Below are positions 1,624-7,357 of a stretch of DNA of 7,978 nucleotides, piece after piece. The notes under the pieces were generated by a model, which was not told the origin of the DNA, made no database searches, and was given only the letters and a program-made list of their open reading frames with translations. Position 1 is the stretch's first letter. Each line of letters starts with the position of its first letter. Source of the DNA: a bacterium (GTDB lineage: Bacteria; SM23-31; JAUVVT01); NCBI GenBank assembly GCA_030616165.1, contig JAUWXV010000173.1, forward strand, positions 1 to 7,978, given 5' to 3'. The translations under genes were made by a program, and so were the position numbers.

Positions 1624-3360
1624 ATGAGAAAGACTAAAATTATTATATTATTTTTGACAATTTGCTTATTTTCAGGATATTTGCAAAATATAAAATATAG
1701 TGTCTGTTTTGCCGGACAAAGTGATTCAAGAGAAATAATAATAGGCGCGATGAAGAAAGAACTGCAGAGGTCAATGAAAAAACTAAGGATGGAGGGATTT
1801 GAATTCCCTTATTTTATAAGTTATTGGATAAAAGAGGAACACTTGATATCTATTTCAGGCAAATTTGGCTCGGTAACCTCTAATTCAGAAAGGGAAAGAA
1901 GGTCGGTTTATGTGGAAGTGAGAGTGGGTGATTATGAGTTTGATAATACTGAAAGGAAAGGCGGTCGCTATGATTTCAGCAGTTTCGGACTTATTCCGAT
2001 GTCTTCATATACTGTTCCCCTTGAAGATGACGAAATTTCCATTAGAAGCGTTTTGTGGTATCTGACAGATATGAAATATAAAGAGGCTCTTGATAATTAC
2101 CTGAAAAAGAAAGGAGAAAAGATTTTTTCTGTTGAAGAAGAACACATTGATGATTTTTCAAGAGAAGATAAATATATTTATTACAGTGAACAAAAGAAAT
2201 TAGAACTGGAAAAAGATAAGTGGCTGAAAATTGTTCGTGATATAACAGATTATTTAGGAAAGATTGAAGGTCTTTATGAATCTAATATGAATGTTTCTGG
2301 AGAAAAGGTTGTTGATTATTTTGTGAATTCAGAGGATTCAGAGATTGCTGATGAATATATTAATTATTCAGTTAATATTTCAGCAAAAATAAAATCCGAG
2401 GATGGAATGTCTATAGAAAACTTCAGGAATTATAAGGTAACAGAGTATGATGAGATTCCGGATTATGAAAAATTAAAAAAAGACGTGGAAAAGATGGTGG
2501 ATGAACTTCTACAATTGCAAAAGGCGGATGAGATGAAACCCTATACAGGACCAGCGATTCTTGACCCAAGTGTTACTGGAGTGATTTTTCATGAGGCTAT
2601 TGGTCATAGGCTTGAAGGAGAAAGACAAAAAAGGGAAGAGTCAGGACAGACATTCAAAGATAAAATCGGTGAAAAGATTGTTCCTGAGTTCTTGACTATA
2701 ATTGATGACCCCACTTTGAAGAGATTTAATGGTGAATCACTTTTTGGCTATTGTAAATTTGACAATGAGGGGATTCCTGCTCAAAAGGTTGTGTTGATAG
2801 AAAACGGAATTTTGAAAAATTATCTTCTATCAAGAACTCCAATTAAGGGATTTAGTAAATCTAATGGACACGGCAGAAGCGATGGGTCACCATTTCAGGG
2901 TGACCCTGTTGGAAGAATGTCAACATTTATTATAAAATCTAAAAAAGAATTTAGTTATGATGAATTGAAAAATAAACTTATCGAAGAATGCAAAAGGCAG
3001 GATAAACCATATGGTTTTATCATAAAAAAGGCAATCGGAGGAGAAACATATACCCAAAGGGGTGGAATGCAGGTTTTTAAAGAATCACCAATCCTTGTCT
3101 ATATTGTTGATGTTGATAGTGAAGAAGAAAAATTGGTAAGGGGAGTGGAAATTGTTGGAACGCCACTCTCCAGTATAAATAAGATGATTGCTTCAAGTAC
3201 AGAATATGAAGTTTATAATGGATACTGCAGTGCAGAGTCAGGTGTTATTCCTGTATCGACAATTGCTCCATGGATATTGACAAGCGAAGTTGAAATGCAA
3301 AAAAGTTCTTCCAGAAAAAGTAAACCGCCAATTTTGCCGTCACCTGTGTTTGATGAATGA
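1624..3360 (+). CDS. Exported TldD-family putative zinc metalloprotease
   Basis: A member of the TldD/PmbA (peptidase U62) family. TldD-TldE is a zinc protease heterodimer known to process modified peptides (microcin B17) and unfolded substrates. Zinc ligands are visible: HEAIGH at residues 323-328 gives the HExxxH histidines, and C535 in NGYCSAESGVIPV corresponds to the Cys ligand near the C-terminus of TldD. Other family blocks are DPSVTGVIFHEAIGHRLEGE (314-333), GSPFQGDPVGRM (421-432) and GGETYTQRGGMQVF (472-485). Two features are unusual. Residues 1-31 form a signal peptide (basic start, hydrophobic core, likely cleavage after CFA), whereas classical TldD is cytoplasmic. The protein is also about 100 residues longer than E. 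coli TldD, mostly in a charged region at ~100-300. A GAGGAG ribosome binding site supports the start. No TldE partner is present. The gene ends exactly where an integrase relic begins. The family and active site are secure; substrate and location are inferred. Confidence 0.93.
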   Translation: MRKTKIIILFLTICLFSGYLQNIKYSVCFAGQSDSREIIIGAMKKELQRSMKKLRMEGFEFPYFISYWIKEEHLISISGKFGSVTSNSERERRSVYVEVRVGDYEFDNTERKGGRYDFSSFGLIPMSSYTVPLEDDEISIRSVLWYLTDMKYKEALDNYLKKKGEKIFSVEEEHIDDFSREDKYIYYSEQKKLELEKDKWLKIVRDITDYLGKIEGLYESNMNVSGEKVVDYFVNSEDSEIADEYINYSVNISAKIKSEDGMSIENFRNYKVTEYDEIPDYEKLKKDVEKMVDELLQLQKADEMKPYTGPAILDPSVTGVIFHEAIGHRLEGERQKREESGQTFKDKIGEKIVPEFLTIIDDPTLKRFNGESLFGYCKFDNEGIPAQKVVLIENGILKNYLLSRTPIKGFSKSNGHGRSDGSPFQGDPVGRMSTFIIKSKKEFSYDELKNKLIEECKRQDKPYGFIIKKAIGGETYTQRGGMQVFKESPILVYIVDVDSEEEKLVRGVEIVGTPLSSINKMIASSTEYEVYNGYCSAESGVIPVSTIAPWILTSEVEMQKSSSRKSKPPILPSPVFDE

Positions 3361-3727: not shown

Positions 3728-6247
3728 ATGAACAGAAATCAAGCCAAACAAACACTAAGAAATATCTTCAATTTAAACCATTTTTATGAAGACCAATGGG
3801 AAACTATTGAGCGAATATCGAACGGTGAAAGAATTCTCCTTATAGAAAAAACTGGTTTTGGAAAATCGCTCTGTTATCAATTTCCAGCAACGCAATTTCA
3901 TGGACTAACTGTTGTGTTCTCCCCTCTTATCGCTTTAATGCGTAATCAGATTAAATACCTCAAATCTATCGGAATATCTTCTGAATGTGTTAACAGCGAA
4001 CAAGAACCTGAAGAAAATTCTGAAATATTTGAAAAAGCCAAACAAAGTAAAATTAAAATCCTTTATATTGCACCAGAACGACAGGAAAATCAAGAATGGT
4101 TAGAGGCGGTTCGAAAAATGAAGCTTTCAATGGTTGTTGTTGATGAAGCCCATTGTATTTCAGTATGGGGACACGACTTTCGACCAGCATTTCGAAGAAT
4201 CATCAGCCTTGTAAAATTATTACCCTCTAACTTCCCAGTTTTAGCAACCACCGCCACTGCTACGGAAAGAGTTGCAAATGACATCATTGCTCAAATGGGT
4301 GGGAATGTTAAACTGATTCGTGGTAATCTGCTTCGTGAAAACTTCTATCTGAGTGTTGTTCGAGTTGATAGTGAAGAAGGAAAAATGGCGTGGTTAGCAG
4401 AATTTCTTAAAAACCAAAATGGGAATGGATTAATTTACACAGGAACCCGTGTAAACACAGATTTATTTGCATCATGGTTACAATTTGTTGGGATAGATGC
4501 CGCTAACTACAACGCTGGTCTTGATGCTGATTCAAGAAAAGAAATTGAAGATGGCTTACTGTCCAATCGGTGGAAATGTATTGTTTCCACTAATGCTCTT
4601 GGGATGGGATTTGACAAGCCCGATATTCGTTTTATCATTCACACTCAAATTCCTCAATCCCCAATACACTATTATCAAGAAATCGGAAGAGCGGGTCGTG
4701 ATAGTTTGCCGACAAAAATTGTTCTTTTATACAATCCTGTTGATAGAGAATTGCCGGAACATTTTATTAATAACAGCCGACCATCAATTAATAAATACCA
4801 ACGTGTAATTAATGCGCTTAAACAAGAACCATTAAGTATACACAATTTAATGCGTAAAACGAATTTGACTCAAATACAAGTTCGGGTTATCAAAACCGAC
4901 TTAATTGACCAGAGGATTATTCGCGAAGTAATGTATGGTAAGAGTAAAAAATATGAATATCAATTCCGTGCCCCTCAATTGGATACCAGACCATTCGAAA
5001 TATTACGCCAGTTCAAAATCGCTGAACTTAAACAAGTAATTGAATATGCTGAAGCGGCAACCTGCCGGATGGATTTCCTTTGTAAATATCTTGGTGATAA
5101 CTCTGTGGGAAGGTGTGGAAAATGTGATAACGATTTGCAAATTATAAATAAATTTACATTAACCGATAACTGGAAAAATAAAATCAAAGAATTTATAGAA
5201 TGTTATTTCCTAGAACTGAAAGTCGAATCCAGAAACTCAAATATTGTAAACGGTGTTGCTTCAGGATATTATGGTTTTTCCAACATTGGCTCTGTAATTC
5301 ATCGATGTAAATACGAAAATGGCGGTGATTTCCCCAATCATCTTTTAATACAAACATTAAGAGCATTCAGACATAAATTTGGAAAAGAGAAATTTGATTT
5401 GGTCGTGTATGTACCACCGACAGAATCCGGTGATTTGGTAAAAAATTTTGCTGAAAAAATTGCGAAAATTTTGGGATTTCCATTTTCCAATGGATTGAAG
5501 AAAATTTCCAAAACAGAGCCTCAAAAAGTATTTGAAAATTATATTTTAAAAAGGGAGAATGTTAAAGGCGCTTTTACCTTTGAAAATTCTGCTGAAATTA
5601 TTGGAAAGTCCATTCTATTTGTCGATGATATATTTGATAGTGGAACAACAATCAAAGAAATTGGCAAAATGTTCACATACTTAGGTACCGCAAAAATTGC
5701 TCCACTGGTGATTGCAAAAACGATTGGCGGTAGTTGGGATGATATAACCAAACCTGCTGGTCTGACAAAAAGAATAGTGAATACGAAAAAGGATAATTTG
5801 AAAATTGATTTGTATAAAATATTAAGGCGATGGCGGGTGCGAAAAGCGAAAGAATTGTCGATTCCTGCTTATTGTATATTATCTAATGCAGCGTTAAAAA
5901 ACATTGCTGAAATGAAACCAGAAAATTTTATGGATTTATTGGAAATCCACGGTCTTGGGAAAATTACGGTCAAAAAATACGGTGAAGATATTTTGAGACT
6001 GGTCAATAAAGGTTTTGAAACAAAGTCGGAAGAAACTACAAAAAAACCTAAAATCCCATCCTATATTGAAGAAAATCGAAAAATTTACCCGAATGCTTAT
6101 AAACCATGGACCGAAGAAGACAATAAAAAGTTGTGGCAATTGTATAACAGGGGCATGAAAGTTGAACATCTATCTCATTTTTTCAAAAGGACTAAAGGGG
6201 CGATTTCTTTAAGAATTAATAAATTATATATCAAGTATGGCAAATAA
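3728..6247 (+). CDS. RecQ helicase fused to a ComF-type phosphoribosyltransferase, HRDC and a Myb-like domain
   Basis: A 3'-5' SF2 DNA helicase with extra domains. RecQ core: Q-motif FYEDQ (19-23), Walker A TGFGKS (42-47), DEAHC (139-143) with the RecQ aromatic loop ISVWGHDFRP (144-153), ATTATAT (173-179), NALGMGFDKPD (289-299) and YYQEIGRAGRD (315-325). A winged-helix-like stretch (~355-415) comes before the zinc module (C446, C463, C466), whose fourth Cys position is D469. Residues ~535-670 are a phosphoribosyltransferase: KTEPQK (595-600) and NVKGAF (611-616) are ComF-like, and FVDDIFDSGTT (631-641) is the PRPP loop. ILRRWRVRKAKELSIPAY through IHGLGKITVKKYG (698-752) is HRDC. A Myb/SANT-like WTEEDNKKLWQLYNRG starts at 794, ending in RTKGAISLRI. 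E. coli RecQ has about 610 residues and lacks the PRTase and Myb parts. AAGG lies eight bases before the ATG. The gene is co-transcribed with the dprA-like gene. Catalytic motifs look intact. The role in defence or DNA uptake is inferred. Confidence 0.92.
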   Translation: MNRNQAKQTLRNIFNLNHFYEDQWETIERISNGERILLIEKTGFGKSLCYQFPATQFHGLTVVFSPLIALMRNQIKYLKSIGISSECVNSEQEPEENSEIFEKAKQSKIKILYIAPERQENQEWLEAVRKMKLSMVVVDEAHCISVWGHDFRPAFRRIISLVKLLPSNFPVLATTATATERVANDIIAQMGGNVKLIRGNLLRENFYLSVVRVDSEEGKMAWLAEFLKNQNGNGLIYTGTRVNTDLFASWLQFVGIDAANYNAGLDADSRKEIEDGLLSNRWKCIVSTNALGMGFDKPDIRFIIHTQIPQSPIHYYQEIGRAGRDSLPTKIVLLYNPVDRELPEHFINNSRPSINKYQRVINALKQEPLSIHNLMRKTNLTQIQVRVIKTDLIDQRIIREVMYGKSKKYEYQFRAPQLDTRPFEILRQFKIAELKQVIEYAEAATCRMDFLCKYLGDNSVGRCGKCDNDLQIINKFTLTDNWKNKIKEFIECYFLELKVESRNSNIVNGVASGYYGFSNIGSVIHRCKYENGGDFPNHLLIQTLRAFRHKFGKEKFDLVVYVPPTESGDLVKNFAEKIAKILGFPFSNGLKKISKTEPQKVFENYILKRENVKGAFTFENSAEIIGKSILFVDDIFDSGTTIKEIGKMFTYLGTAKIAPLVIAKTIGGSWDDITKPAGLTKRIVNTKKDNLKIDLYKILRRWRVRKAKELSIPAYCILSNAALKNIAEMKPENFMDLLEIHGLGKITVKKYGEDILRLVNKGFETKSEETTKKPKIPSYIEENRKIYPNAYKPWTEEDNKKLWQLYNRGMKVEHLSHFFKRTKGAISLRINKLYIKYGK

Positions 6248-6252
6248 GGGGA
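6246..6252 (+). promoter_or_regulatory. Ribosome binding site overlapping the helicase stop codon
   Basis: AAGGGGA begins inside the helicase TAA (6245-6247) and sits seven bases before the ATG at 6260. Ribosomes ending on the helicase gene would uncover or occupy this site, so the two proteins are probably translationally coupled and made together. Confidence 0.75.
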
Positions 6253-6259
6253 TTTTGTA

Positions 6260-7357
6260 ATGAGTGATTACCCATATTGGATGGCACTTGCCCATTTACC
6301 AAATTGGCTAACGGAAAAAATTAACAGCCTAATTGTTGAAATCATACAAAATCGTAGAATTTCATTTGTAGAATTCTTTGAACTCAATAAGAATGAATGG
6401 CAAAATGAATTCCAGTTAAATGAAAAAGAAGTAGAAGATTTGCAAAATACTAAATTAGAGCTTCCAAATTACTCATTTCTTGCAGAAAGTTTACTTGAAC
6501 AAGGTTTTAGTATTATCACAATCAACTCTGAAGAATATTCAAAAACCCTTAAACAAAACCTTAAAATGAAATACTCCCCACCACTCCTATATACTAAAGG
6601 AAATATAAAATTATTAAACGAGTCTTCTGTTGCAATCGTGGGTTCGCGAAAGGCATCAGATATTGCTTTGGAGTTCACTAAAACCATTGCTAAAAACTTT
6701 GCAAAGAACTATCAGATTGTTGTGAGTGGTTTTGCTAAAGGCGTGGATAAAACAGCGCTTGATGCAACACTGGAAGTTCATGGTCATAGTATCATCGTTT
6801 TACCTCAAGGTATTATGACTTTTACCAGTGGCTTTAAGAAGTATTATGCCCAAATCATTGAAGGTGATGTTCTTTTGTTAAGCACTTATCATCCCAATGT
6901 GCCCTGGAGCGTAGGATTGGCAATGGGTCGCAATATTTACATTTATGGATTGGCTGATAAGATTTATGTTGCTGAAACTGATTTAAAAGGCGGGACATGG
7001 ACAGGTGTAATGGATGGTTTAAAAAAAGATCGTACAATTTATGTGCGTGAGCCGGAATCAGATGAAAAAAATGCAAATTATTTGTTGATTGAGAAAGGTG
7101 CTATACCTGTAGATATGGATGGTAAACCTATTCAGGTTGAAGATAAAAAATATTTTGAACTACAAATTAAGAATATTCTTTCATCAAAGCCTCTTACAGC
7201 AAAACAAATCAAGGATTGTTTACACCTTGATATTGATACTCTAAAATTATCACAGTTGATATCTAGTATGGATTTCATTGTATCGGAAAAGATTAAAAAA
7301 GTAAAAAGTTTTCGCTTAAAGAACAAAAAAAAATTGCAAGGTAACTTATTCGAATAA
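6260..7357 (+). CDS. Divergent DprA/Smf-like protein (SLOG fold)
   Basis: A DprA homologue. In natural transformation DprA binds incoming single-stranded DNA and loads RecA. The wider SLOG fold also includes nucleotide-binding proteins of conflict systems. The Rossmann-like core is clear: VAIVGSRKAS (124-133), VVSGFAKGVDKTALDATLEVHG (154-175), VLPQGI (180-185), GRNIYIYGLAD (223-233) and IYVAETDLKGGTWTGV (235-250). These correspond to the DprA blocks VAIVGSR, VSGlArGIDaaAH, RNRIIaGLS and VVEA..SGsLiTA. Several are altered: MGRNIYIYGL for RNRIIaGL, GGTWTGV for SGsLiTA, and STYHPNVPW where DprA has SE.P.G. An N-terminal helical region (1-~75) and a C-terminal winged-helix-like segment (~305-353, TAKQIKDCL then LSQLISSM) complete the DprA layout at normal length. 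It follows the helicase gene by 12 bases. The family is secure. Its divergence and partner suggest a dedicated accessory role rather than the housekeeping competence protein. Confidence 0.9.
   Translation: MSDYPYWMALAHLPNWLTEKINSLIVEIIQNRRISFVEFFELNKNEWQNEFQLNEKEVEDLQNTKLELPNYSFLAESLLEQGFSIITINSEEYSKTLKQNLKMKYSPPLLYTKGNIKLLNESSVAIVGSRKASDIALEFTKTIAKNFAKNYQIVVSGFAKGVDKTALDATLEVHGHSIIVLPQGIMTFTSGFKKYYAQIIEGDVLLLSTYHPNVPWSVGLAMGRNIYIYGLADKIYVAETDLKGGTWTGVMDGLKKDRTIYVREPESDEKNANYLLIEKGAIPVDMDGKPIQVEDKKYFELQIKNILSSKPLTAKQIKDCLHLDIDTLKLSQLISSMDFIVSEKIKKVKSFRLKNKKKLQGNLFE

Follow-up and report, generated by a model that had tools for sequence, protein, structure and literature searches.

An HRDC- and Myb-like-tailed variant of the PsyrTA (RqlHI) toxin-antitoxin pair in a divergent, mobile subfamily

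The window analyzed here is an entire contig of 7,978 bases (JAUWXV010000173.1 of assembly GCA_030616165.1; GTDB lineage SM23-31), which carries on its plus strand, at 3728-7357, a gene for a RecQ-type helicase fused to a ComF-type phosphoribosyltransferase (PRTase), followed by a gene for a DprA-like protein. The original prediction had taken this pair to be an undescribed module, which was wrong because PADLOC and prior papers name it: judged by sequence, the pair corresponds to the known toxin-antitoxin and anti-phage system PsyrTA, also called RqlHI. It departs from the usual PsyrTA form in that the PRTase is followed by a C-terminal HRDC domain and a Myb/SANT-like three-helix domain; the window thus holds a tailed PsyrTA variant in a divergent, mobile subfamily, and in other respects is an unremarkable example of a system already catalogued. 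PsyrTA reportedly goes back to Sberro 2013. The same pair was described in 2015 as RqlH and RqlI in extraintestinal pathogenic Escherichia coli F11 (PMC4670107), and a helicase-PRTase fusion coupled to DprA was discussed in an analysis of 2017 (PMC5512222).

Both open reading frames (ORFs) are complete. The psyrT/rqlH-like gene (3728-6247, 839 amino acids) ends in TAA at 6245-6247, and the psyrA/rqlI-like gene (6260-7357, 365 amino acids) starts with ATG at 6260, on the same strand. The junction reads aaaTAAGGGGattttgtaATG, and the stretch at 6245-6259 comprises the psyrT stop codon and the 12-base gap, with a purine-rich AAGGGG that resembles a ribosome-binding site and overlaps the stop, so that the predicted spacing and shared stop/ribosome-binding-site region were borne out. 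When the two proteins were compared with PADLOC, the first matched PsyrT with E=1.7e-279 over profile positions 1-686 of 689, and the second matched PsyrA with 2.4e-81, against only 4e-36 for ShosA. The window therefore shares with catalogued PsyrTA (PDLC03928/PDLC03927) a RecQ-PRTase toxin upstream of a DprA-like antitoxin, at near full profile length; it differs in its phosphoribosyl pyrophosphate (PRPP) loop, DSGTT as opposed to DS[G/R]WT, in the added HRDC and Myb-like domains, and in being just 30-35% identical to classical members.

The architecture of PsyrT was assigned from the ORF, Pfam, PADLOC and an AlphaFold2 model with a predicted local distance difference test score (pLDDT) of 88.5. 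A RecQ-type superfamily 2 helicase motor occupies residues 1-340 (3728-4747), as judged by Pfam (DEAD 4.8e-25, Helicase_C 9.3e-21), motifs and Foldseek. Residues 354-411 (4787-4960), between the motor and the zinc domain, form three helices and then two strands by DSSP of the model, which we read as a winged-helix-like linker. The RecQ zinc-binding domain (4988-5134; RecQ_Zn_bind at residues 428-469, 3.3e-8) has its cysteines at C446, C452, C463 and C466, and the ComF/GntX-type PRTase domain covers residues 509-668 (5252-5731) by Pfam (Pribosyltran 2.9e-6), NCBIfam (GntX 2.4e-7, ComF 4.2e-7) and the model, in which it spans residues 509-665. Within this domain, alignment of motifs placed the PRPP loop ILFVDDIFDSGTTI at residues 629-642 (5612-5653); in its DDIFDSGTT portion D633 is invariant in 48 sequences, while D634, S638 and T641 are nearly so. 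The Walker A motif TGFGKS, the DEAH box, motif VI (QEIGRAGR), all four zinc cysteines and the PRPP loop are intact, and HRDC was matched at 1.1e-18; the RecQ motor, ComF-like PRTase, intact PRPP loop and HRDC that had been predicted were indeed recovered. The best Foldseek match of the model was RecQ (4tmu, E=3.9e-31); it is to be noted that the match list for the whole protein was filled by RecQ entries, and speaks for the motor and not for the PRTase or the tail.

The PADLOC PsyrT profile covers residues 1-667 of the window protein, and about 170 residues remain C-terminal to it. The HRDC domain was located there at residues 690-761 (5795-6010) by Pfam, the tail census described below and the model. 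Behind it, the Myb/SANT-like domain (residues 778-838; 6059-6241) was drawn from the model, from a weak Myb match in the 75% identical homologue L007 (relatives are referred to by locus number), and from its occurrence in L063 and L065 as well. A Pfam search found no Myb match in the window copy, and the matches in L007 were below threshold (E=0.0044 and 0.0085). Nonetheless, the model has a confident three-helix unit at residues 796-837, with pLDDT mostly 91-96. Low-confidence linkers precede the HRDC domain (residues 669-691) and the three-helix tail (residues 765-775), and because these linkers are loose in the model, the HRDC domain and the Myb-like unit are suggested to be flexibly tethered. 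No description of an HRDC-tailed PsyrT was found in a literature search covering few subscription papers.

To place this tail among its relatives, we measured the region after the PRTase in a further 92 PsyrT-like sequences whose C-terminus was complete. They came from plasmids, viral contigs, genome samples and a scan across GTDB; distinct proteins number slightly below 92, since a few loci entered the set in duplicate, and relatives of the window are overrepresented. No tail was found in 88 of the 92, which end 26 residues or fewer after the PRTase. The four tailed proteins were L007 (same class as the window, another family), with HRDC and Myb; L059, from a Bernardetiaceae metagenome-assembled genome (MAG), with HRDC alone (E=1.9e-22); and L063 and L065, from a Dehalococcoidia and an Omnitrophota MAG, each with the Myb-like part alone. 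Among 386 genomes sampled across the domain, which yielded 13 full-length PsyrT proteins, tails were present only in the genomes of the window and L007. All four tailed relatives fall in the fully supported clade of the window, where the two HRDC-plus-Myb proteins group together (100/100) and the two Myb-only proteins do not group; the tail states are thus scattered over the PsyrT tree. Between the window and L007 the ratio of nonsynonymous to synonymous substitution rates (dN/dS) was 0.08 for the motor, 0.15 for the PRTase, 0.24 for the Myb part and 0.48 for HRDC, and psyrT is under purifying selection between the two. The corresponding dS values (NG86) were about 0.84 for psyrT and about 2.0 for partial psyrA, a difference that may be noise or may reflect separate histories.

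The partner was assigned by PADLOC, Pfam (DNA_processg_A 2.7e-42) and a model with pLDDT 94, which consists of a helical N-terminal domain, a DprA/SLOG Rossmann core and a C-terminal winged helix. The core spans residues 84-284 (6509-7111), with the motifs GSR, SGFAKGVD, AMGRN and KGGTW, and the winged helix spans residues 295-353 (7142-7318), with helices at 295-307, 314-321 and 327-335 and strands at 340-353 by DSSP. The best PDB matches of the model were DprA (3uqz; 1.1e-16, Z 26.9), in keeping with the DprA-like character noted originally, and the antitoxin ShosA (8zva; 1.2e-16, Z 25.2), followed by molybdenum cofactor carriers, LOG enzymes and ThsA SLOG domains. In the two Myb-only systems, PsyrA (L063:2396-3310 and L065:8030-8971) stops after the Rossmann domain and has no winged helix. 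A coupling of the Myb-type tail of PsyrT with winged-helix loss in PsyrA was considered and dropped, because the window has both the tail and the winged helix, and several tail-less systems have no winged helix.

The window shares with RqlH-RqlI of F11 the gene order, the operon, the domains, the putative PRPP-pocket aspartates and a helix-turn-helix ending the partner. The F11 PRTase lies C-terminally, at residues 509-690, whereas the window PsyrT runs about 170 residues further. In that system, the absence of RqlI lets the RqlH PRTase domain cause DNA stress and an SOS response; toxicity requires this domain, is lost when the PRPP pocket is mutated (D663A, DIVD to EVME) and is countered by RqlI, and the two proteins interact and are encoded in one operon (PMC4670107). 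The DIVD stretch corresponds to D634-D637 of the window. Orthologues were reported from 240 genera, and wherever both genes occur rqlH invariably precedes rqlI (PMC4670107). A two-gene system of DprA and PRTase guards E. coli against T7 and lambda (PMC9122126). ShosTA (PDB 8zva, 9vzo) likewise combines a DprA-fold antitoxin, which the window PsyrA resembles structurally, with a PRTase; its toxin, however, is described as a PRTase without RecQ, while in the window the PRTase is joined to a complete RecQ motor. This fusion, together with the PADLOC scores given above, ruled out ShosTA as the identity. Mycobacterium smegmatis RqlH is reported by Ordonez 2012 to comprise a RecQ-like motor, a linker, a tetracysteine zinc domain and a ComF-like PRTase, all shared with the window, but to be without HRDC. 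It has no RqlI (PMC4670107), whereas the window PsyrT has both an HRDC domain and a partner. Canonical RecQ has the motor, the zinc domain and HRDC in common with the window PsyrT, in which a PRTase is inserted between the last two; this insertion and a score of 427.5 bits against the NCBIfam recQ cut-off of 640.2 ruled out that identity.

The window also belongs to a distinct part of the family. In a maximum-likelihood tree of the PsyrT core, it forms with L007, L038 and L059-L066 an 11-row clade with support of 100/100; L067, L068 and L069 lie just outside, and the classical PsyrT/RqlH proteins lie across a long branch. Clade members come from Bacteroidota, Ignavibacteriota, Chloroflexota, Omnitrophota and one Methanosarcinales archaeon, and since they span bacterial phyla and an archaeon, the clade has moved between phyla. 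In these proteins and in L067-L069 the PRPP loop is of the classical kind, in most cases DSGxT, and the pyrophosphate-loop region is of the VPPTESG or VPSTKSG type, whereas the loop of the classical PsyrT group nearly always contains tryptophan (DS[G/R]WT); we infer that the clade has the more conventional PRTase. Within the class of the window, the pair was found in two of six genomes, at 75-76% identity between copies, compared with 46-51% for canonical DprA between families and 71% for RecA. This comparison points to transfer, but is not decisive because the genomes are incomplete. No close clade member was found in IMG/VR or phage records, where the only full-length PsyrT proteins were two distant ones, L142 and L143, both in IMG/VR, and a phage-borne origin was therefore rejected. 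Variation in other parts of the protein was seen as well. The tail-less clade members L060, L061 and L062 have lost some of the zinc cysteines (S,C,F/Y/K,C), and a separate PsyrT group (L037, L087, L092, L126 and L142) has none of them. A Mariniphaga PsyrT of the window clade (L096:6001-7684) is split over two frames, by degradation or a sequencing frameshift, and its PsyrA is intact. A Melainabacteria protein (L070:5980-8127) has HRDC (residues 7-72), RQC (109-192), DEAD (242-409), Helicase_C (443-550) and a zinc domain (647-690) in this order, which suggests a RecQ that has been circularly permuted; it has no PRTase.

The search for the pair across genomes that the original prediction had proposed showed that the pairing is kept. 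PsyrA adjoins PsyrT in every clade member whose contig continues, i.e., the window, L007, L038, L059-L063, L065 and L096. The neighborhoods are often rich in defense genes: L065 lies by a type I restriction-modification specificity gene and an AAA protein of the PADLOC candidate PDC-S06, L066 by AbiE, L060 by a TdeIII restriction enzyme, and L067, just outside the clade, by HmaA and HmaC. Two plasmid copies of classical PsyrTA lie within other defense operons: in one (L027:1435-12079) the pair separates pglX from pglZ of a BREX operon, in the other (L028:1694-11773) hsdS from hsdR of a type I restriction operon. The conservation of the pair in unrelated, often defense-rich loci, like the literature, is consistent with the original guess of a self-contained conflict or defense module. 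Beside the PsyrTA of L059, a single ORF (6036-8327) joins a group 1 glycosyltransferase to a radical SAM-SPASM domain.

Taken together, we consider it probable that the pair is a PsyrTA (RqlHI) toxin-antitoxin and anti-phage system of a divergent and horizontally mobile subfamily, and most likely a genome-integrity-sensing defense module with a swappable DNA-binding tail. The domains, motifs, pairing, defense context, spread and patchy tails behind this view come from the present analysis, whereas genotoxicity, restraint and interaction are taken from E. coli RqlHI. PsyrT would be a RecQ-type 3'-5' motor that bears the ComF-type PRTase as its toxic part, and PsyrA, through its DprA/SLOG fold, would bind PsyrT and keep the PRTase harmless, as in RqlHI. 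The complex may patrol single-stranded or branched DNA until it is disturbed by abnormal intermediates of replication or recombination, for instance those that an infecting phage produces; several systems built on a helicase or on DprA are known or proposed to sense phage single-stranded DNA-binding protein or replication intermediates (PMC10732053). The freed, DNA-tethered PRTase would then damage the genome, leading to the SOS response and growth arrest, and infection would be halted at the cost of the cell. The HRDC and Myb-like tail most likely strengthens or redirects DNA binding, and would thereby tune which DNA is patrolled or attacked.

Several points weigh against this reading. HRDC is the least constrained part of PsyrT, and because it evolves fastest between the window and L007, its role may be auxiliary or fast-adapting. 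The remaining genes of the window, for a glycosyltransferase and a TldD-like protein, are not of defense type. Native PsyrTA did not detectably protect one E. coli host, in which its overexpression slowed growth (PMC12409345). This last result favors a selfish addiction module that maintains itself or a mobile element and has no real anti-phage role, as do the toxin-antitoxin behavior of RqlHI (PMC4670107) and the plasmid-borne copies; we regard this as unlikely, given the repeated placement within or beside restriction-modification, Hma, BREX and AbiE loci. Less probable still is a chromosomal repair pair, in which PsyrT is the RecQ of the cell, made more RecQ-like by a regained HRDC, PsyrA is a DprA-like mediator, and toxicity arises upon imbalance only. 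HRDC is a classic RecQ module, and the 90%-complete genome has no RecQ-like helicase of comparable score elsewhere (next match 25% identity, E=1.6e-11); moreover, most Gram-positive RqlH homologues have no partner (PMC4670107), for which reason RqlH may also serve repair. Against such a role stand the patchy presence in the class and in the 386 genomes, the cross-phylum spread and defense-gene neighbors, and a PRPP loop that is conserved although the RqlH-type PRTase is reported dispensable for helicase activity (PMC4670107). Natural transformation, with a fused ComFA/ComFC-like protein and DprA handling incoming single-stranded DNA, would suit the ComF/GntX-type PRTase and the DprA fold of PsyrA but is very improbable, since the motor is of RecQ and not ComFA type, a canonical DprA is encoded elsewhere in this genome, as it also is in class members that do not carry the pair, and PADLOC and published work class the pair among toxin-antitoxin systems. 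The competence set ComFA/ComFC/DprA was ruled out on the motor-PRTase fusion and the separate DprA; PsyrA itself scored 115.3 against the NCBIfam dprA cut-off of 191.15. The original prediction had named a catalogued competence or repair set as the outcome that would speak against it; the pair is indeed catalogued, but as a toxin-antitoxin and defense system.

As for the rest of the window, a TldD/PmbA-like protease gene with a hydrophobic N-terminus (1624-3360) lies directly upstream of psyrT. A tldD-pmbA pair is likewise directly upstream of psyrT in L062, with 22-33%, partial similarity to the window gene, and this may be coincidence. No structured RNA reached the Rfam gathering score in the window, a promoter and terminator scan gave no more sites than shuffles, and a repeat search found at the locus nothing except weak, chance-like pairs.

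A more specific proposal is offered tentatively, and with more doubt than belief: that the clade is a distinct PsyrTA subfamily, in which a classical, probably competent PRTase site is combined with a swappable DNA-binding tail (none, HRDC, Myb-like or both) that sets the DNA structure or element which the toxin patrols or modifies. If this is true, tail exchange would act as a change of sensor specificity. Members of the subfamily, with their textbook PRPP loop, would be good enzymes for asking how the helicase-coupled PRTase of RqlH/PsyrT acts on DNA, and the natural tailed and tail-less variants would serve as ready controls for testing whether a defense toxin owes its trigger to DNA-binding modules.

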